Positions 41,468 through 52,947 of a DNA stretch of 64,000 nt are shown here, piece by piece. How positions within the stretch are numbered: position 1 is the first letter of the stretch; the number at the start of each line of letters is the position of its first letter. The notes under the pieces are model-generated. The model made no database searches, had not been told where the DNA came from, and worked only from the letters and a program-made list of their open reading frames with translations. The DNA comes from Thiobacillus sp. (GTDB lineage: Bacteria; Pseudomonadota; Gammaproteobacteria; Burkholderiales; Thiobacillaceae): positions 64,863 through 128,862 of the forward strand of contig JAIBEI010000041.1 of assembly GCA_019459055.1 (NCBI GenBank), read 5' to 3'. The position numbers were made by a program, and so were the translations under genes.

Positions 41468-42676
<1,209 letters not shown>

Positions 42677-42774
42677 AAATCCGTTGGGCCGCGCGAGCGC
42701 GGCCTGCATGCCGGAAGACACATTCAAGCCCCCCCCCGCCGGACGCGGGCTGACTGCGCACCCCCCTGAACGCA

Positions 42775-44577
42775 TCACGCGTCCGGCGGCACCTCCGTCA
42801 ACACGCGGACGCGGGTGGGGTATGCATACGCATCCTGCTCCATTGCCGGCACGCGCCAGCCGGCGGCAGTGCGTGCCAGCCGCTGCAGCGCGGGGTCGCG
42901 CAGGCGGAGGCTGGCCAGAATCAACACATCGGATGGCGAATACAGCGCACCATCCGCCAGCGCCGGTTCGGCCTGCAGGGTGGCCAGCAGCGGCCGCGCT
43001 TCATGTTTCCACCCCTTCTCGCTCCAGAACCGTTGCCAGGCAACCTGCGCGAGTTGTCGCGCCTGCTCGCGCGACGGGCCATTGCCGGTGGCGTCGGCAT
43101 GGTCGAGCAGGCCCTGCACGACATAGGCGTAATCCTCCAATTCGGCCTCCGGCAGCACCTTCCCGCGCGCCATCGCCTTCAACAAGCGGCCGTCCCTGAC
43201 CAGCCGCGTCAGCAGGAATTGCTGCAGGCGGTCGGCGCGCAGGCGGTAGGCCGGATCGAGCTGAATGGCCTGACTGAACGCCGACAGCGCCAGGCCATTG
43301 AGGCCGGCGTTCAGCTTGTCGTCCTTAGGCAGGCTGCGGGCCTGGCGCACGGGACGCAGGATGCGCGCGGCGGCGGCCAGCAGCCGGCGCTCGTCGGCCG
43401 TCGGCGTGCGGTATTCCGCAGGCAGATAGCCGTGATCGAAGTTGCGCGGCGCATCGAGTCGCCACACCCGACGCGCCGCAGCGAGAGCTTCCGGCGCCAG
43501 GCGCCGCTTCAGTTCATCAGGTTCCCACAGATAGGCCGCGCCTTCCCGGCCGGCGGCGTCCACCGCCGACGTGCTGCTGTAGAGGCCGCCGCTCGGGTCA
43601 AGTAATTCGTCCTGCATGAAACCTAGCGTGCCGCGCGCAATCTCGCGGTAACGCGGCTGCCCCAGCACGCCGGCGGCGCGCAGGTAGAGCACGGCCAGAT
43701 GCGCGTTGTCGTACAGCATTTTCTCGAAATGCGGCGTGTCCCAGCCCGGGTCGGTGGTGTAGCGAAAGAATCCGCCGCCGATAGGGTCGTGCAGCCCGCG
43801 CGCCGCCATCTGGTCGAAGCTCAGACGCAGAAATCCGGCCAGCTTGGCGTCCGGCTGCCGCGCCTGGCGCTCCAGCAAGGCATGCAGTTGCGGCGCCATG
43901 GGAAACTTGCTGACCTGGCCGAAACCACCGTGCAGCATGTCGGCTTCCTGCCACACGCCGGCGATGAACTGCTCCCAGGCGCCGGCGGCGCGGACGGCCG
44001 TCAGCGGCGCGCGGCTGGGCGGCAACGCGGGCGGCGGCGCTGCCCGCTGCGCCAGCTGGCGTATGCCAGCGGGATCCGCCGCCCAGCGCTCGGCGAGATG
44101 GCTCAACAGTTTGCGAAAATCGTCCGGCGGCGCATACAGCGCGACAAACGCCGGGAAACCCTCGGGCGTGACGAAGGCATTGAGCGGCCAGCCGGCGACG
44201 CCGTTGAGCTGAGCCGAGAAGGTCTGCAAGCCGTCGTCCAGCCCGCTGTTGAGCTCGCGGTCGACCTTGACCGGGATGAAATCGCGGTTGAGCCGTGCGG
44301 CAATCTGCGCGTTCTTGTAGCTTTCGCGCTGCATGACGTGACACCAGTGGCAGGCGAAGTAGCCCACCGACACGAACAGCAGCTTGTTTTCGCGCTTGGC
44401 GCGGGCGACGGTGGCGGCATTCCATTCCTGCCAGGCCACCGGGTCGCTGCCATGCAGCGCAAGATAGGGCGAAGGGTGGTTGACCAGCTGGTTGACCGGA
44501 GCGGCCGCAACCGCAACCGGCAGCAGCAGGCTCAACAGCAGGATGGCGAATACTGTGCTGCGCTCAAACCCTGACAT
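42775..44577 (-). CDS. Exported DUF255/YyaL-like protein with thioredoxin-fold N-terminal domain
   Basis: Signal sequence FAILLLSLLLPVAVAAA; NHPSPYLALHGSDPVAWQEW...VSVGYFACHWCHVMQRESY. ATG 44577 lies inside the 3' end of the preceding gene. Confidence 0.85.
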   Translation of the reverse strand: MSGFERSTVFAILLLSLLLPVAVAAAPVNQLVNHPSPYLALHGSDPVAWQEWNAATVARAKRENKLLFVSVGYFACHWCHVMQRESYKNAQIAARLNRDFIPVKVDRELNSGLDDGLQTFSAQLNGVAGWPLNAFVTPEGFPAFVALYAPPDDFRKLLSHLAERWAADPAGIRQLAQRAAPPPALPPSRAPLTAVRAAGAWEQFIAGVWQEADMLHGGFGQVSKFPMAPQLHALLERQARQPDAKLAGFLRLSFDQMAARGLHDPIGGGFFRYTTDPGWDTPHFEKMLYDNAHLAVLYLRAAGVLGQPRYREIARGTLGFMQDELLDPSGGLYSSTSAVDAAGREGAAYLWEPDELKRRLAPEALAAARRVWRLDAPRNFDHGYLPAEYRTPTADERRLLAAAARILRPVRQARSLPKDDKLNAGLNGLALSAFSQAIQLDPAYRLRADRLQQFLLTRLVRDGRLLKAMARGKVLPEAELEDYAYVVQGLLDHADATGNGPSREQARQLAQVAWQRFWSEKGWKHEARPLLATLQAEPALADGALYSPSDVLILASLRLRDPALQRLARTAAGWRVPAMEQDAYAYPTRVRVLTEVPPDA

Positions 44578-45295
44578 AGGTCCAGCCTTGCTGGAGCCGG
44601 GTGACGATTTCGCCGATGGCGGTGGGTGCAGTCTTGGTCGCGGGAAGCAGGACGACGGTTTCGCCATCGTTGGCGAAACGGGCAATGGACTGCCCGCACG
44701 CCACCCAATGCAGGTTGGCATGGCGCTGCTTCATGCGCGCCATGCGCGCCGCATGGGGGCTGACCCCGGCGCGCAGCAGGTCGATGCCACGGCTGTTGGC
44801 AATGACTTCGAGTTGCATCGCCCGGCCCTGCTGTTCCGCTTCGTCGAGCAGCCGCTCGGCCTGATCCAGCACCGTCCGCATCTTGTCGGGCGCGGCACTG
44901 TCGAGGTGCAGCAGGATCCGATTCGGGTCGGCCGCGCGTGCCAGGCTGACCGCCTGAAAGCCGCCGACGACGGCGGCCGGAACGGTGGCCACCGCTTGCG
45001 GCTCCAGCCCGCGCAAGGCCCAACCGCCGCTCAATCCTGCAACCAGGACGAGACAGCCGTACGCGCAGCGCTGCATGAACTGGCGCCGGGGCGCCCCACC
45101 CGGTTGCCGGCCGGCGGCAACCGGCGGTTCGGCATACGCCAGCCGCACCATGCTCTGCAGACTACGCAATGCGCAGACACGCTGCGCCAGATCCTTGTCG
45201 TCACGGATGCGGGCGATGAGCGCTTCGCTCTCGGCCACGTCGAGTTCGCCATCGACAAAGGCATGCAGGGTCTCATCCGAAACAACGAGGTTCAT
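44564..45295 (-). CDS. Membrane anti-sigma factor with predicted periplasmic DsrE-like domain
   Basis: N-terminal LHAFVDGELDVAESEAL (anti-sigma-like), one TM (CLVLVAGLSGGWALRGL), C-terminal NRILLHLDSAAPDKMRTVLDQAERLL...NLHWVACGQS...WTYVRV resembling adjacent DsrE-like proteins; ATGA overlap with the sigma gene. Confidence 0.78.
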   Translation of the reverse strand: MNLVVSDETLHAFVDGELDVAESEALIARIRDDKDLAQRVCALRSLQSMVRLAYAEPPVAAGRQPGGAPRRQFMQRCAYGCLVLVAGLSGGWALRGLEPQAVATVPAAVVGGFQAVSLARAADPNRILLHLDSAAPDKMRTVLDQAERLLDEAEQQGRAMQLEVIANSRGIDLLRAGVSPHAARMARMKQRHANLHWVACGQSIARFANDGETVVLLPATKTAPTAIGEIVTRLQQGWTYVRV

Positions 45296-45846
45296 TTCAC
45301 GCTCCTCAACAGGGCCCTGGCCGCAGGCTGCTGCGTCGCAGGATCCAGCAAAACTTTCAGGCTTGCGCGCGCGCGCGACAGGCGACTCATCACCGTGCCC
45401 ACCGGAATATCCAAAATCCCGGCCACTTCGGCATAGCCAAATTCTTCCAGGTCGACCAGCGTCAGCACCTGGCGCTGCCCCAGCGGCAGGCGCGCCACCG
45501 CGGCCCGCACGCAGGCGATCACCTCCTGGCGATTGCAACAAGCGTCGGGCGCCTCGGCACCGGATTCGAGTTCATCGTAGAGGTCGTCGACATCGTCGAA
45601 GTCGCGCCGGCTGCGCAGGTGATCGAGCCAGCAGTGATTCATGATCGACACCATCCAGCCCTTCAGCGCCGCCTCGTCGCGCAGCTGGGCACGGCGCGCC
45701 CAGGCCTTCGACAGAGCCTCCTGCACCAGATCGTCGGCCAGTGCCGGATCGTGGCACCAGGCGTAGGCGATGCGGTAGAGCAGCGGGCGCTGCGCCTCGA
45801 TTCCGGAGCGAAACGGGCCAAACAGGAAGCGGCTGATCATGGTCAT
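45292..45846 (-). CDS. ECF-type RNA polymerase sigma factor
   Basis: Region 2 (YRIAYAWCHDPALADDLVQEALSKAW) and region 4 (LPLGQRQVLTLVDLEEFGYAEVAGILDIPVGTVMSRLSRARASLK). The ORF extends to 45873, but that start overlaps a candidate promoter, so 45846 is preferred. Confidence 0.88.
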   Translation of the reverse strand: MTMISRFLFGPFRSGIEAQRPLLYRIAYAWCHDPALADDLVQEALSKAWARRAQLRDEAALKGWMVSIMNHCWLDHLRSRRDFDDVDDLYDELESGAEAPDACCNRQEVIACVRAAVARLPLGQRQVLTLVDLEEFGYAEVAGILDIPVGTVMSRLSRARASLKVLLDPATQQPAARALLRSVK

Positions 45847-45851
45847 GTGGG

Positions 45852-45881
45852 TAAGACGGGGCGAGTGGTTCATTTATTCCA
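45852..45881 (-). promoter_or_regulatory. Candidate ECF promoter for the sigma/anti-sigma operon
   Basis: Reverse strand GGAATAA - ATGAACCACTCGCCCC (16 nt) - GTCTTA. Confidence 0.65.
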
Positions 45882-45902
45882 TAAAAAATCACCCACCGGA
45901 AT

Positions 45903-45931
45903 GGAATAAGCGTGCCAGACGACGCGTCTTA
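45903..45931 (+). promoter_or_regulatory. Candidate ECF promoter for the divergent DsrE-like gene
   Basis: GGAATAA - GCGTGCCAGACGACGC (16 nt) - GTCTTA; same elements and spacing as the reverse-strand promoter. Confidence 0.68.
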
Positions 45932-45988
45932 TCCATAGGGCCGATAGTAATTAAGCCGGCTTATCGATAACTGTTCAGGAGACCCACC

Positions 45989-46456
45989 ATGATTCGCACC
46001 CTCACCCCTCTGCTTGCCGCTCTGCTGCTGGCGAACTCGCCCATGATCCACGCTGCTCCGGCAGCGGGGGCTGCAGCCCCCGCTGCCGCGGCTGCCGCGG
46101 CTGCGGAAGAAAAAGTGGTCTACCACATCAATGACGCCTCGCTTGCCCGCGTCGCCATGCGCAACATCCAGAACCACATCACGGCCAGCCCCGATGCCAA
46201 GATCGTGGTGGTGACCCACGGCAAGGGCATCGATTTTCTACTCAACGACGCCAAGGATGAAAAAGGCGAGTCCTATCAGACCCAGGTGGCCGGTCTCAAG
46301 GAAAGAGGCGTCGATTTTCGCGTCTGCCGCAACACCCTCAAGGGGCGCAAGCTGGACGACAGCGCCGTGATGATGGATGCCACGGTGGTGCCGTCCGGCG
46401 TGGCCGAGATCGGCAGGCTGCAGGCCAAAGAAGGCTTCGTCTACCTGAAGCCCTAA
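45989..46456 (+). CDS. Secreted DsrE-like protein 1
   Basis: Signal peptide and Ala-rich linker; VVYHINDASLARVAMRNIQNHI...IVVVTHGKGIDFLL...VDFRVCRNTLKGRKL...GFVYLKP. Confidence 0.82.
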   Translation: MIRTLTPLLAALLLANSPMIHAAPAAGAAAPAAAAAAAAEEKVVYHINDASLARVAMRNIQNHITASPDAKIVVVTHGKGIDFLLNDAKDEKGESYQTQVAGLKERGVDFRVCRNTLKGRKLDDSAVMMDATVVPSGVAEIGRLQAKEGFVYLKP

Positions 46457-46551
46457 AGGACTCCGATCCACTACGTGCTAAAGCGCGTGTGGAATCGTAT
46501 GCCCTAAAGGACTCCGATCCGTGCGCGCGCCAATGCGCGCATGGGTTCCAT
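46450..46551 (+). repeat. Two tandem 51-bp units, each a 20-nt identical box followed by a hairpin
   Basis: gccctaaaggactccgatcc at 46450-46469 and 46501-46520; each followed by a GC-rich inverted repeat. Confidence 0.8.
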
Positions 46552-46705
46552 CTCCTGAATCACTCCTTAATGCCCCTCCGGAGAAGGGGGCGGGAGCTTT
46601 TTTGGCCCGAAAAAACGGGACCCACATGAATCAAGAAACACGGTAGGTGCTGTTTGGCCGCCGCTTTAGCCCTGGCTGTACCTGTCCATCTATCGGAGGC
46701 AAGCA

Positions 46706-47146
46706 ATGCTTAACTTTTTTCGATCCGCCCTTCTCGTCATGTCTTCTCTTCTGTTCGTCCCGGCCCCTGCCCTGGCAGCAGCTCAGAGCCTGGCTGAATA
46801 CAAATATGTCCTTCACATCAGCGACATGGATCCGTCCAAGCAGGAACTCATCCTGAACAATGCCCGAAACCTGCTGGAAGCCTACCCGCCGGGCGATGTG
46901 GAAGTCGAAATCGTTGCCTATGGACCCGGCCTGCGCCTGATGTTTGCCGAGAACGTCAACGCCCAGCGCCTTGATTCGCTATCCCAGAGCGGCGTGAAAT
47001 TCACCGCATGCGGCAACACCCTCAAGGGCATGGCGAAGCTACTCGGGGAAGAGCCGAAGCTGAATCCGGCTGCCAACGTGGTGCCCGGCGGCATCGTGCG
47101 CATCGGCGAACTGGTCAAGCAGGGTTACATCTACGTCAAACCCTGA
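46706..47146 (+). CDS. Secreted DsrE-like protein 2
   Basis: Signal peptide; YKYVLHISDMDPSKQELILNNARNLL...VEIVAYGPGLRLMF...VKFTACGNTLKGM...GYIYVKP; RBS cggaggcaagca. Confidence 0.82.
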   Translation: MLNFFRSALLVMSSLLFVPAPALAAAQSLAEYKYVLHISDMDPSKQELILNNARNLLEAYPPGDVEVEIVAYGPGLRLMFAENVNAQRLDSLSQSGVKFTACGNTLKGMAKLLGEEPKLNPAANVVPGGIVRIGELVKQGYIYVKP

Positions 47147-47229
47147 CACCCGGAATGGGAATTACGGGGCTTTTTGCAGGGGCACAAACCCTGCCGGACT
47201 TACTTGAAACCAAATAGAGGAGCAATAAA

Positions 47230-48615
47230 TTGGGAGAGAACAAACAACTCAAGCGCGCACTGATCAGCGCAGCCTGCACCCTGGCTTTCGCCGCCGCAGG
47301 CACGTCCCATGCGGCCAACTGGCTGATGCTGCAGGGCACCGAAGATCCAGCATCCGCTGCACGCGCCAATGTGTGGGGATTTATCCAGGCCAAATACGAG
47401 AAGGACTTCAGCGATGCCAATGCCTTAGGACAATACGTACCCCCCAAACTGCTTGGGCCTGAACTCGAAGCTCAGGACGGTTTCAACATCAACCGTGCCC
47501 GTATCGGCGTCCGCGGTACCGGCTTCCCGCTCGACAGCCGGATCAATTATTTCGTCCTGCTCGAAATGGGCAACAATGGCATCACGCATGGTGGCGGCGC
47601 CTTTGCCAAAATGTCCGACGCCAGTGTCACGCTGAATTACATTCCGGGTGCCCGCATTCGCGCCGGCCTGTTCAAAACCCCAGGCTCCGAAGAAGGCCTG
47701 CAGGCAATTCATGTGTTCGACTACATCAACTTCAGCGAAGCGGCTAACGGCCTGCTGCTGGAGCGCTTCCCGAACAAGGGCTTCACCGACTGCACCGGCA
47801 CCATCGCTCCATGCAACGCGGCCACAGGCAACGTTGGCCCGTATACCGAGGCCCAGCTTCAGGGTGGCGCCGGTCTGAACCGATTCGACAGTCCGATTGG
47901 CGCATTCCGCGATGTGGGGGTGCAGGTGTTCGACGCGTTCGACGTCGGCAACGACTGGGAAGTCTCCTATGCCGCGATGGTCGGCAACGGCAACGGCATC
48001 GAGTTCAGCAACAGCGATGGCGAATACGACACCTATCTCTACTTCTCGGCCGAGAAGAAGTACGGTGGCAAGGGGCCCAAGGCCGAAGGGCTGAAGTTCT
48101 TCGCCTGGGGTCAACAGGGGAAGCGCCTGCTTGATCTGACGAACGACACAACGGCCAACGCCCAATCCTACGACCGGGATCGCGCTGGACTAGGCTTCAA
48201 GTTCATGAAGAAGCCCTTCCGCGTGACGGCCGAGTACATCACGGCGGATGGCATGATCTGGAGCGGGCCGGACAAGCCAAATTTCTACTTCACCCAAATA
48301 GCGCACGGCAACGGCGCCGATGCCAAATCCAGTGGCTGGTATGTGGAGGGCGGCTGGTATATCCCCAAAACCAAGTTCGAGCTCGATGCCCGCTTCGACA
48401 CCATGACCCGGCTTGAGAACCGCATAAACGAGCACCAGTTCGACAAGTGGACCCTGGGCATGCAGTACCATTTCAACCCCAAGACCCGCGTCACGCTCAA
48501 CTACGAGATCCGCGACTTCGAGTGCACGGTTGCAGGGGCTGTCTGCACAGCCGTCAACAACAACCTGAAAGGGGTGAATGACAAGGTCGGCGTGCAGCTG
48601 ACCGCAATTTTCTAA
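47230..48615 (+). CDS. Outer membrane porin (phosphate-selective OprO/OprP-like)
   Basis: Signal peptide (TTG start), GFNINRARIGVRGTGFPLDSRINYFVLLEMG, C-terminal VGVQLTAIF ending in aromatic residue. Confidence 0.8.
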   Translation: MGENKQLKRALISAACTLAFAAAGTSHAANWLMLQGTEDPASAARANVWGFIQAKYEKDFSDANALGQYVPPKLLGPELEAQDGFNINRARIGVRGTGFPLDSRINYFVLLEMGNNGITHGGGAFAKMSDASVTLNYIPGARIRAGLFKTPGSEEGLQAIHVFDYINFSEAANGLLLERFPNKGFTDCTGTIAPCNAATGNVGPYTEAQLQGGAGLNRFDSPIGAFRDVGVQVFDAFDVGNDWEVSYAAMVGNGNGIEFSNSDGEYDTYLYFSAEKKYGGKGPKAEGLKFFAWGQQGKRLLDLTNDTTANAQSYDRDRAGLGFKFMKKPFRVTAEYITADGMIWSGPDKPNFYFTQIAHGNGADAKSSGWYVEGGWYIPKTKFELDARFDTMTRLENRINEHQFDKWTLGMQYHFNPKTRVTLNYEIRDFECTVAGAVCTAVNNNLKGVNDKVGVQLTAIF

Positions 48616-48756
48616 GCAGAAAATCAGTTTTTGTATGGGTCTCCTCATGCCCACCAGGTCAAACTGGTGGGTTTTTTGCGAATAGACCAGGTCAGGCGTG
48701 TCGCTCAGCCACCGATGTTCGACAACGCCACAACACTTTTCCATGAAAGGAACGCA

Positions 48757-49260
48757 ATGCGCTTATTTCATTCACCCGGCATTAAGTGGCTGGGGCTGCT
48801 GGCGGCCGCGAGCCTGCTCTCCGGCTGTGCCGGTACGGGCGACAGCAGCGCCCAGAGCGGGCGCATCAGGATCACCTCCGAACCCGCCGGCGCCATCGCC
48901 TATGCGGACGGCGCCGAACTTGGCGCGACACCACTGGCGATCGCGCCCGGCAACCACTTCCGCTCGGGCTTCGTGGGGTTTTCCTACCGCTACGTCGGCA
49001 AGCTCTCGATCAGGAAACCCGGTTGCGAGACCTGGTCGACCGAAGTCAATGATGCGATTTTGTCGAAGGACATACACGCCAGGCTGAGGTGCGACCCGAA
49101 TCACCAGCCCGCCGCCCCCTCACCCGTGCAACCCGCCGGCACAGAGACCGGCGATCAACCCATCGAACGGCTGGAGCGCATTGAAGCGCTGCGCAGGAAA
49201 GGGCTGATCAGCGAGGAGGAATACAAGCGCCTACGCGCCCGCATTATCGAGAAACTCTGA
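48757..49260 (+). CDS. Lipoprotein with PEGA-like region and SHOCT-like C-terminus
   Basis: Lipobox LLSGC; GRIRITSEPAGAIAYADGAELGATPLAI; ERLERIEALRRKGLISEEEYKRLRARIIEKL. Confidence 0.7.
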   Translation: MRLFHSPGIKWLGLLAAASLLSGCAGTGDSSAQSGRIRITSEPAGAIAYADGAELGATPLAIAPGNHFRSGFVGFSYRYVGKLSIRKPGCETWSTEVNDAILSKDIHARLRCDPNHQPAAPSPVQPAGTETGDQPIERLERIEALRRKGLISEEEYKRLRARIIEKL

Positions 49261-49302
49261 CGCGCTGCCCCCATCAAGCAAACGGCCATCAGGCCGTTGT
49301 GC

Positions 49303-49851
49303 TTATGCGCTGCGGATGAAATGCTCGCGGTAATACTTCATTTCGTCGATGGACTCGTAGATGTCGGCCAGCGCCTCGTGCTTGTTGGACTTCTTGAACG
49401 CTTCGGAAAGTCCGGGCCGCCAGCGCTTGGCCAGCTCCTTCAGGGTGCTGACGTCGAGGTTGCGGTAGTGGAAGAACGCTTCCAGTTGCGGCATGCAGCG
49501 CGCCATGAAGCGGCGGTCCTGGCAAATCGAATTGCCGCACATCGGCGAAGTCCTGGCCGGCACGTGCTGTTTCACGAACTCAAGCATCTGCGCCTCGGCG
49601 TCAGCCTCGTTCAGCTGCGAAGCCCTGACGCGGTCGATCAGCCCCGATTTGGCGTGCGTGCCCTTGTTCCAGCTGTCCATCGCATTCATGACCTCGTCGG
49701 GTTGATGGACCGCCAGCACCGGACCTTCGGCCACGGTATTGAGGTCGGCATCGGTAACGACGATGGCGATTTCGATGATGCAGTCGTTCTCCGGCGACAA
49801 GCCGGTCATTTCCATGTCGAGCCAGAGCAGGTGCGTGGGGTTCAGAGCCAT
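49303..49851 (-). CDS. orn: Oligoribonuclease
   Basis: [32 protein letters not shown]; DEDDh motifs. Confidence 0.95.
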
Positions 49852-49962
49852 ATCAAGGTTCCTTGCGAAAAACAGGCTGTCATTTTCGCACACGACGTAC
49901 CAGGCGCTGGCGCAATTGCGGTCCTGTGACCATAATGTTGGCAATACCAGAGGAATCCCATC

Positions 49963-50277
49963 ATGATCATGAAAACCCTGACCGCCCTGTTCTGTAGCGT
50001 ACTGCTGGTTGGCGGCGCCCACGCCGCAGCGGTTGCCAAAAGCGACTCCGATGCCGGCAAAATCCTGCACGACAAGGCCTGCACCAGTTGCCACGTCCGC
50101 ATGTTCGGCGGCGACGGCAGCAAGATCTACACCCGCGCCGACCGCAAGACCAAAACCGCGCAGCAGCTCGCCGCCCGCATTTCCGGCTGCAACGCCAACA
50201 CGGGCGCCGGCTGGTTCCCGGAGGACGAGGCGCACGTCGCCGCCTACCTCAATAAGCAGTACTACAAGTTCAAGTAA
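49963..50277 (+). CDS. Secreted monoheme cytochrome c
   Basis: Signal peptide; [19 protein letters not shown]. Confidence 0.82.
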
Positions 50278-50300
50278 GGCTCATTCAAACGAGGAATGCC

Positions 50301-50642
50301 ATGACCACCGTCGTAGAAGAACTCGTCCGCAAGAAGTGCGCGCCCTGCGAGGGCGGCGTCGCGCCGCTGACCGATGCGCAGATTGCGCCGCTGCTGAAGG
50401 GCCTGTCCGGCTGGCAGCGCGAGGCTGAAAAAATCGTCAAGGAATACAAGTTCAAGGACCACTACCAGGCCCAGGCCTTCACCAATGCGGTAATGTGGGT
50501 GTCGCACCGCGAGGACCATCACCCCTACCTGCTGGTGGGCTACAACACCGTCAAGGTCGAGTACTGGACGCACGCCATCGGCGGGCTTTCCGAAAACGAT
50601 TTCATCTGTGCGGCCAAGGTCGATACGCTTCTTGAGATTTGA
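50301..50642 (+). CDS. phhB: 4a-hydroxytetrahydrobiopterin dehydratase
   Basis: [51 protein letters not shown]. Confidence 0.93.
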
Positions 50643-50711
50643 GCCTCAAGTCGCCCCCGCGTTGATCCGTTTAGAGTTCTTTTTTTTCGCGCATAAAGGA
50701 CCGGCCTGATC

Positions 50712-51086
50712 ATGGACTGGATGGAAATCATCGGTGCCCACGTGATGTGGAAACAGCGCCTGACCAGCTTTCTCGCTGGCGAAAGTACGGAAAACCTCGA
50801 TCCTGAAACGATCCGGTTGGACGATCGTTGCGCCCTGGGCAAGTGGCTTTATGGCGAAGGCAGCGCCATGTCTGAATTGCCACGGTATGAGGAAGTGCGC
50901 GGCCTGCACGCCCAGTTCCATCAATATGCGGCAAACGTGGTCAACCTGCACCTGGCCGGCAATTCGGCCGAGGCCGAAAAACTGCTGCAAGGCGACTACT
51001 CCAGGCTATCCGAAAAACTCAAACACCGGGTTATCGGCCTGTCGCAGCAGGTGAAATCGGCTTCCAACGGAATCCCGCCATTCTGA
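50712..51086 (+). CDS. Stand-alone CZB (chemoreceptor zinc-binding) domain protein
   Basis: AHVMWKQRLTSFL...RCALGKWLYGEGSAMSELPRYEEVRGLHAQFHQYA CZB signature. Confidence 0.85.
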   Translation: MDWMEIIGAHVMWKQRLTSFLAGESTENLDPETIRLDDRCALGKWLYGEGSAMSELPRYEEVRGLHAQFHQYAANVVNLHLAGNSAEAEKLLQGDYSRLSEKLKHRVIGLSQQVKSASNGIPPF

Positions 51087-51961
51087 ACACCCTGACCGGG
51101 CAGGTCGTCGCCGCTTTCAGCCGCCGTTTCATCGTCGCGACCGCCAGCGGCGAACTGCCCTGCCAGGTCAAGGGCCGGCAGTTGCGCGTGGTGTGCGGCG
51201 ACCAGGTCGAAGTCCGGCGCGACGGCGATGCCGGCGTGATCGAGGCCGTGCTGCCGCGCGCCAGCCTGCTCTACCGCTCCGACGCCTTCAAGTCCAAGGC
51301 CATTGCCGCCAACGTCACCCAGCTTGCCGTGGTAGTCGCCGCGCGGCCGAGCTTTTCGATGGAATTGGTGCAGCGCTGCATCCTCACCGCCGAGGACCAG
51401 GACATCGCCAGCCTGCTGATCCTCAACAAATCGGACCTGCCGGAAACGCCGGCTGCGCTGGAACGCCTCGGCCTGCTCACCCGCATCGGCTATCCGCTCG
51501 TCATGCTGTCGGCGCTGACCGACGTGGCGCCGCTGCGCCCGGCCCTGCACGGTCACACCACGCTCTTGATCGGGCAGTCCGGAATGGGCAAGTCGACCCT
51601 CATCAACGCGCTTTTTCCGGGCGCCGACGTGGTGACCGCTGAGTATTCCGAGGCGCTCGACAGCGGGCGCCACACCACCACCCACACTCGCCTGCACCGG
51701 CTGGACGCCGACTCGGCGGTGATTGATTCGCCCGGCCTGCAGGAATTTGCCCTGCAGCACATGGATGCCGGTGCACTGGCGCATGGCTTCGTCGAGTTCC
51801 GCCCGTTTCTGGGACAGTGCCGCTTCCGCGACTGTAAGCACGAGACCGAGCCGGGCTGCCGGCTGCAGGAAGCGGCCGCCGCGGGCGAGATCGACCCGGC
51901 GCGAATCAAGCTGTTCCAGACCCTGCGCCGCCTGCAGCAAAACGCCGCCCAGCGTCTATAA
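51083..51961 (+). CDS. rsgA: Ribosome small subunit-dependent GTPase A; non-canonical start likely
   Basis: NKSDLP, GQSGMGKSTLINAL, DSPGLQEF; C-terminal Zn motif. OB-fold start TGQVVAAFSRRFIVATASGELPCQVKGRQL lies upstream of the first ATG/GTG/TTG. Confidence 0.9.
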   Translation: MNTLTGQVVAAFSRRFIVATASGELPCQVKGRQLRVVCGDQVEVRRDGDAGVIEAVLPRASLLYRSDAFKSKAIAANVTQLAVVVAARPSFSMELVQRCILTAEDQDIASLLILNKSDLPETPAALERLGLLTRIGYPLVMLSALTDVAPLRPALHGHTTLLIGQSGMGKSTLINALFPGADVVTAEYSEALDSGRHTTTHTRLHRLDADSAVIDSPGLQEFALQHMDAGALAHGFVEFRPFLGQCRFRDCKHETEPGCRLQEAAAAGEIDPARIKLFQTLRRLQQNAAQRL

Positions 51962-51993
51962 ACCAAGCTGGCTTACATCAGAGGAGAGCGGCC

Positions 51994-52503
51994 ATGAAAT
52001 CAATTCTGGTTGCGTTGATGGGGCTATGGCTGGGATTTTCCGCACCGGCACAGTCCGCCGGAAAATGGGTGGCGACGCCCTACGCGCCAGCCAGAGTCGT
52101 GTTCGAGTTCTATCTGGACGACCCGCAGAAAATCGGCAGCGCGCTCTACTGGGTGCGCTCGCTGATGAATCCCCTGCAGGCAGCGCCGTATAACTACTCG
52201 CCCGAAGATTTGAGCATCGTCGTCGTGATCCACGGCACCGAGATCGTCACGGTGGCGAAAAAGAACGAGGCGAAATACCGGGAAGCCGTCGACCGCATGC
52301 GTTACTACGCTGATTTAGGGGTGTCGTTCAAGGTGTGCGGGCAGGCCGCGGAAGATTTCGGCTACGCGGTAAAAGATTTTCAGGACTTCATCGAAGTCGT
52401 GCCCAACGCCATCACCGAACTGGCGCACTGGCAGCAGCGGGGCTATGCGCTGATCGTGCCCCAGATACTGGACAAGCGGATCGACATCGAGTCGATCCGC
52501 TGA
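51994..52503 (+). CDS. Secreted DsrE-like protein 3
   Basis: Signal peptide; RVVFEFYLDDPQKIGSALYWVRSLM...LSIVVVIHGTEIVTV...VSFKVCGQAAEDFG...GYALIVPQ. Confidence 0.78.
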   Translation: MKSILVALMGLWLGFSAPAQSAGKWVATPYAPARVVFEFYLDDPQKIGSALYWVRSLMNPLQAAPYNYSPEDLSIVVVIHGTEIVTVAKKNEAKYREAVDRMRYYADLGVSFKVCGQAAEDFGYAVKDFQDFIEVVPNAITELAHWQQRGYALIVPQILDKRIDIESIR

Positions 52504-52512
52504 CAGCTGGCC

Positions 52513-52947
52513 TTATTCCGGCCAGTGCTTGATGTAGCGCTTCAAGAGGCTGTTCTCGAATTTGGCTTCCTTCAGGCTGGCGCGCGCCACGTCGTGGAAG
52601 GAAATGATGCCGAGCAGCTTGTCTTTTTCGAGAATCGGCAGGTGGCTGATATGCGACTTGGTCATCACGTCGCGCGCATAGTCGACCGAATCGTCGGCAT
52701 CGGCCACCACCGGCTCAGTCACCATGATGGTGCTGACCTGCGCATCCTTCAAGTCGCAGCCCTGCTTGACCATGCCCTGCATCACGTCACGCTCGGTCAG
52801 CAATCCCACCATCTCGCCGTTCTTCAGCACCACCAGCGAACCCACGCCCAGGCTCACCAGCTTGGCGACGGCGCTTTCCACCGAATCGGTCGGCTCGATG
52901 CTGTAGATGGCGTCGCTTTTGAAGGTGAGGATTTCGCGAATCAACAT
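52513..52947 (-). CDS. CBS-domain pair protein
   Basis: AVAKLVSLGVGSLVVLKNGEMVGLLTERDVM and second CBS repeat. Confidence 0.9.
   Translation of the reverse strand: MLIREILTFKSDAIYSIEPTDSVESAVAKLVSLGVGSLVVLKNGEMVGLLTERDVMQGMVKQGCDLKDAQVSTIMVTEPVVADADDSVDYARDVMTKSHISHLPILEKDKLLGIISFHDVARASLKEAKFENSLLKRYIKHWPE

Follow-up and report, generated by a model that had tools for sequence, protein, structure and literature searches.

Predicted divergent ECF26-like promoters at a Thiobacillus locus whose anti-sigma factor carries a DsrE domain

Two copies of the sequence GGAATAA-N16-GTCTTA point away from each other between an ECF sigma factor gene and a gene for a secreted DsrE-family protein in a Thiobacillus sp., within a stretch of 64,000 nucleotides that was analysed as a whole (the window). 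This raises the questions of whether the two sites are promoters, which sigma factor would read them and to what signal such a circuit might respond. The first site (45852-45880, minus strand) is the predicted promoter of the sigma/anti-sigma operon and consists of a -35 box GGAATAA at 45880-45874, a 16-nt spacer ATGAACCACTCGCCCC whose last base is C, and a -10 box GTCTTA at 45857-45852; the prediction draws on the exact match, on orthologous loci and on likeness to the SMc01418 promoter discussed below. The second (45903-45931, plus strand), the predicted promoter of the divergent DsrE unit, has GGAATAA at 45903-45909, a 16-nt spacer GCGTGCCAGACGACGC, likewise ending in C, and GTCTTA at 45926-45931, and is assigned on its exact match and on the conservation of its minus-strand counterpart in orthologous loci. 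The -35 boxes are separated by 22 bp. The initial annotation had described identical boxes at the same 16-nt spacing with differing spacers, and both sequences were found exactly as and where it had placed them.

Given that the sites lie less than 80 bp apart, their likeness could stem from a recent local duplication or be functionless chance. The probability of this is negligible for two reasons: first, the spacers differ; second, the pair is conserved across many genera far above shuffled controls. Conservation in orthologous loci was the point on which the initial annotation had staked its reading, and there the pair, taken as no more than three mismatches with 16-bp spacing, was kept in 58 of 76 loci of sulfur oxidisers, these 76 being those with an intact upstream region among the 80 best of 159 relatives, which do not form a random sample. 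When the consensus was permuted 200 times and each version scored on these regions, the mean was 0.15 and the highest value 4; the remaining 18 relatives had no recognisable pair at this threshold and spacing. Across 129 aligned sites, which were picked by their likeness to the consensus, GGAATA and CGTC are 96-100% conserved, the adjoining A and TTA are partly conserved and the spacer holds little information. The C directly before GTC played no part in the choice of sites and is nevertheless present in 96% of them, both window sites included; as judged from this alignment the refined core is GGAATA-N16-CGTC, with CGTC as the real -10 core.

The paired-box region is also an imperfect inverted repeat of 42 nt (71% complementarity) and could be regarded as an operator for a DNA-binding repressor or activator. 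Across relatives, the two -35 boxes lie between 11 and 136 bp apart, most often near 22-25 or 33-35 (in one pairing they overlap), while the spacing of 16 is fixed on each strand, and the extra copies found in relatives occur singly, each upstream of a gene. Because the box spacing is fixed and the inter-site distance variable, the sites are taken as two separate promoters and not as a single operator; the operator hypothesis, which is extremely improbable, was rejected on the variable distance.

The minus-strand promoter would serve a gene (45292-45846, minus strand) for a 184-aa protein in which both Sigma70_r2 and Sigma70_r4_2 score above the Pfam cut-offs, as in ECF (group 4) sigma factors, and whose recognition helix is PVGTVMSRLSRAR. 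Its start is most likely the ATG at 45846, rather than the longest-ORF start at 45873, given that two other Thiobacillus loci have the upstream ATG in a different frame and that M(T/S)xISRFLFG is conserved. With a start at 45846 the -10 box ends 5 bp upstream of the sigma start codon, and in three Thiobacillus loci (window 45846-45857, minus strand; L146; L147) the start codon falls 5-7 nt past the -10 box. By analogy, transcripts would begin about 6-8 nt after GTCTTA, which places the start sites within about 2 nt of the sigma start codon in these three loci, and a leaderless or near-leaderless sigma mRNA is therefore predicted; most other genera have longer leaders upstream of sigma.

The boxes belong to a promoter class that is already known. 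The S. meliloti RpoE1-dependent promoter of the SMc01418 operon, which has a mapped start (GCCGGGAATAAATCCATAGCCCTCCGTGTCTTATCCTCG; PMC6180224, Table 1), shows the same 7+16+6 arrangement with boxes that agree letter for letter with those of the window, and the boxes of the S. meliloti rpoE4 promoter (TCATGGAATAAGCGAGGCAGCTCGCTCGTCTCTACGCCG; PMC6180224, Table 1) are nearly identical to them. The ECF26 consensus is GGAAT/CGTC (PMC6527743), and both elements are present in the window sites within the 16-17 bp spacing of that group. As is also characteristic of ECF26, the anti-sigma gene lies directly downstream of the sigma gene, overlapping it by 4 nt (ATGA) in the window and adjacent to it in nearly all relatives checked. 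The S. meliloti pairs RpoE1/EcfR1 and RpoE4/EcfR4 (ECF26; PMC3511301, PMC6180224) likewise combine adjacent sigma and anti-sigma genes, autoregulation, a tiny regulon and a link to sulfur compounds, although their targets are a sulfite oxidase and a lipoprotein operon, unlike the DsrE targets here. SigE-sorAB of Starkeya novella (ECF26 type; PMC6527743) shares GGAAT/CGTC and the control of a sulfur-oxidation gene by an ECF/anti-sigma pair, but SigE differs from the proposed circuit in that it is not autoregulated and in that the regulated enzyme is a sulfite dehydrogenase (PMC6527743).

Comparison of the proteins gave a mixed picture as regards ECF26. The recognition helix GTVMSR is common to the window sigma and two ECF26 references (against GTVRSR in E. 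coli RpoE and GTIKSR in an ECF15 protein), the identity to two ECF26 references is only 34-35%, and the sigma tree does not separate the ECF26 and ECF15 references. The top score of the family HMM was the ECF26 reference RpoE6 (145 bits), the other ECF26 reference scoring under three unclassified plasmid sigmas, and comparison with COG5662-type anti-sigma factors gave a weak N-terminal match of 36 residues to the EcfR6 region (E 0.05). On a megaplasmid of Cupriavidus metallidurans (L233 position 900), an ECF26-type site GGAATAAGCACCCCCCTCCCCGCGTCTAC was seen some 2 kb away from an ECF gene whose product has the same recognition helix.

It could be argued that the boxes serve another sigma factor of the genome and not the adjacent one, given that two further ECF genes were found by homology and that ECF promoters are alike. 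This is highly unlikely: one of the two is near E. coli RpoE, both have different helices (GTVRSR, GTVKSR), and the motif tracks the presence of the window-type sigma/anti-sigma pair. Of 299 genomes sampled from the same order, 36 encode an anti-sigma homologue (E 1e-8), and most of their loci, a set that partly overlaps with the 76 described above, have GGAATAA-N16-GTCTTA or near variants on both strands upstream of sigma. Exact 13-base matches numbered 25 in these 36 genomes, where the reversed-pattern control gave 1, and zero in 46 same-order genomes in which the anti-sigma gene was not found; the motif travels with the sigma/anti-sigma pair. The pair of sites is kept in many beta- and gammaproteobacterial genera whose anti-sigma factors are about 30-79% identical to that of the window, among them two Thiobacillus MAG proteins at 78-79%. 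It is suggested that the neighbouring sigma factor binds these boxes, and the proposal of divergent, autoregulatory ECF promoters was upheld at the level of sequence by conservation in orthologues with free spacers, by co-occurrence with the sigma/anti-sigma pair and by identity with a mapped ECF26 promoter.

The anti-sigma gene (44564-45295, minus strand) encodes 243 residues that divide into an N-terminal helical anti-sigma-like domain (about 1-55), a membrane helix (about 70-95) and a domain of DsrE fold (about 124-243). Pfam and NCBIfam gave no significant match to the window protein, which the Pfam DsrE model misses, and the fold was identified from four directions. A profile of 44 anti-sigma homologues matched the DsrE-family structures MTH1491 (1L1S, E 1e-15) and ST0148 (2PD2, E 2e-8); an AlphaFold2 model (mean pLDDT 87.5) showed the helical domain at the N-terminus, the helix at 70-95 and, with pLDDT near 96, a C-terminal domain; the top six PDB matches of this model in Foldseek were all DsrE-type (a designed cage protein among them), led by 1L1S with a TM-score of 0.89 over the target; and a DsrE HMM built without anti-sigma sequences matched 110 of 111 anti-sigma proteins, the window protein with E 3e-13. 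Cys200 is invariant in both anti-sigma alignments, and the DsrE-family cysteine aligns with it in 44 of 44 rows of a joint alignment (22 anti-sigma and 22 secreted DsrE proteins). The fold is common to this C-terminus and to the DsrE-family proteins MTH1491, ST0148, TusBCD and YchN, with an aligned cysteine in MTH1491; unlike those proteins, the window domain is joined to an anti-sigma domain by a membrane helix and probably lies in the periplasm, since arginines precede the membrane helix, which fits a cytoplasmic N-terminus.

With this topology, read from the arginines, model and sequence together give a membrane anti-sigma factor with a cytoplasmic helical domain, a single membrane helix and a periplasmic domain, and such a protein would inhibit its cognate sigma. 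The architecture is that of RseA in the E. coli RpoE-RseA system, in which a membrane anti-sigma factor combines a cytoplasmic anti-sigma domain with a periplasmic sensor part; that system differs in its GGAAC-type -35, its helix GTVRSR, its non-DsrE sensor and its signal, outer membrane protein stress. The zinc-binding ZAS/zf-HC2 motif HxxxCxxC is conserved in neither of the two anti-sigma alignments, and zf-HC2 gave sub-threshold matches only, in 10 of 30 members (best E 0.0037). A tree of DsrE domains gathers 24 domains from anti-sigma factors into a single supported clade and puts those of one divergent genus (L069-L071) among secreted DsrE proteins, perhaps through an independent fusion. 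The tree suggests that the DsrE/anti-sigma fusion arose twice, although one common origin, while less favoured, was not rejected (AU p 0.086). No description of a DsrE-bearing anti-sigma factor was found in the searchable literature, in which its position beside DsrE/Sox targets also appears to be undescribed, although an earlier listing in a large ECF reclassification paper is possible; apparent mentions of 'DsrE' in PMC2729926 and PMC3511301 proved to be DsRed.

A probable third gene of the operon (42775-44577, minus strand) encodes a DUF255/DsbH-like thioredoxin-fold protein (Pfam Thioredox_DsbH) with a signal-peptide-like N-terminus and overlaps the anti-sigma gene by 14 nt (44564-44577, minus strand); it is close to the locus in only 6 relatives and the linkage is not kept in most. 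On the plus strand, the first gene of the divergent unit (45989-46456) encodes secreted DsrE-family protein 1 (Pfam DsrE, 3.4e-12), followed by secreted DsrE-family protein 2 (46706-47146; Pfam DsrE, 2.8e-5) and a Porin_O_P-type outer membrane porin (47230-48615, TTG start as called; Pfam Porin_O_P, 7.5e-12), a homologue of which lies near the locus in 30 relatives. Read-through to the second DsrE gene and the porin is uncertain because a terminator-like hairpin followed by a T run (46571-46592, plus strand) separates the DsrE genes, the pattern scan that picked it out being weak (7 found against 4.6 expected).

Other features were also recorded. A perfect 20-nt direct repeat GCCCTAAAGGACTCCGATCC lies just past the first DsrE gene at 46450-46469 and 46501-46520, copy one spanning the stop codon, and a third secreted DsrE-family gene, which has no promoter motif, lies 5 kb off (51994-52503, plus strand). 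A dispersed repeat near GAAATA(A/T)CGAAACATGAAACAGCGTCTTT has at least seven copies in the genome (C4:13192, C11:35619, C11:66893, C13:147702, C13:190769, C28:38174, C29:75248). Rfam gave no match in window positions 42000-52600.

The initial annotation had also expected the motif to predict a regulon of sox, dsr and porin genes, and in the source genome this was not seen. A pattern scan of its 2,932,595 bases found exact copies of GGAATAA-N16-GTCTTA at these two sites only and zero at one mismatch throughout the 2.93 Mb, the reversed pattern likewise giving zero exact matches; the six two-mismatch matches examined in context (L003-L008) were dismissed as further sites, as they fall within genes or by unrelated ones and look like chance. 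The soxY gene of this genome has no GGAA...GTC site up to four mismatches. The detectable regulon in the source genome is local.

The prediction holds better in relatives. In 70 of 111 loci, drawn from two partly overlapping locus sets, the divergent gene adjoining sigma encodes a secreted DsrE protein; the figure rises to 75 with the inclusion of five ORF calls that are overlong. At motif-bearing loci where it does not, it encodes SoxY (L160 and L221, and L189 by inspection), SoxB (L171; best NCBIfam match TIGR04486, partial sequence), a Sulf_transp/YeeE protein (L188), a metallo-beta-lactamase fold that by inspection is ETHE1-like or persulfide dioxygenase-like (L190), or by inspection an alpha/beta hydrolase (L208). 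Extra exact sites in relatives, each single, lie upstream of a DsrE protein (L078), soxY (L095) and, by inspection, a DsrE-like protein (L075), and others upstream of a TPR protein (L094), a HAD-like protein (L090) and a secreted protein without family assignment (L074). All 36 anti-sigma-positive genomes have SoxY, compared with 191 of the 299 genomes sampled; the hypergeometric p is 2.6e-8 when genomes are counted and 2.8e-4 when genera are, uncorrected for phylogeny. Promoters, autoregulation and the link to sulfur are well supported computationally.

In the circuit that is proposed, the adjacent ECF26-like sigma would read both promoters, the minus-strand one driving the sigma/anti-sigma operon, and so its own expression, and the plus-strand one driving a secreted DsrE protein resembling a sulfur carrier and perhaps also the second DsrE protein and the porin. 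At rest, sigma would be held by the membrane anti-sigma factor with its periplasmic DsrE part. Candidate signals in the periplasm are polysulfide, thiosulfate-derived persulfide and sulfur loaded on DsrE/Sox carriers; either the invariant cysteine of the anti-sigma factor would react, or its DsrE domain would swap partners with secreted DsrE proteins, and the freed sigma would raise its own operon and the DsrE unit. Confidence in the promoter circuit is high, the sensing of reactive sulfur through the anti-sigma DsrE domain has an even chance of being correct, and the explanation as a whole, an autoregulated ECF26-like circuit whose anti-sigma DsrE domain reads periplasmic reactive sulfur, is considered likely.

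The same circuit may instead respond to sulfite, to thiosulfate itself or to envelope or redox stress, with the DsrE domain as a docking module and the first DsrE protein maybe an RseB-like feedback inhibitor. DsrE proteins are commonly multimeric, and sensor and targets have a common fold, both of which speak for this reading. Given that the ECF26 relatives RpoE4 and SigE are sulfite-induced (PMC3511301, PMC6527743), sulfite is by analogy a serious alternative signal; it is to sulfite and not to sulfane sulfur that the best-studied ECF26 systems respond, which counts against the reactive-sulfur circuit. However, the alphaproteobacterial systems adjoin sulfite oxidases, whereas the neighbours here are DsrE genes, joined in relatives by Sox and YeeE genes; the RpoE4-type anti-sigma factor of Sulfitobacter, the sole alphaproteobacterial one compared, has no similarity to DsrE; and neither the sensor nor the targets vary at the cysteine. 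Such a circuit is credible, at a little under an even chance.

To our knowledge, the reactive-sulfur sensors known so far are cytoplasmic, and little is known of how periplasmic sulfur-oxidation genes are controlled in chemolithotrophs such as Thiobacillus, Sulfuriferula and Sulfuritalea. The locus carries the ECF26 promoter class, so far linked to sulfite, over to the control of DsrE and Sox genes, with a putative sensor domain paralogous to the protein under its control. Its sigma factor and the presumed inhibitor are defined, the inhibitor has a cysteine that could plausibly act as sensor, the motif is verified and the targets are few, so that the question can be tested directly. It is tentatively proposed, as a possibility more doubtful than probable, that beta- and gammaproteobacterial sulfur oxidisers sense periplasmic sulfane sulfur by an anti-sigma factor with a DsrE carrier domain captured from the very class of proteins under its control, in which persulfidation of the cysteine would free sigma to raise the DsrE and Sox carriers.
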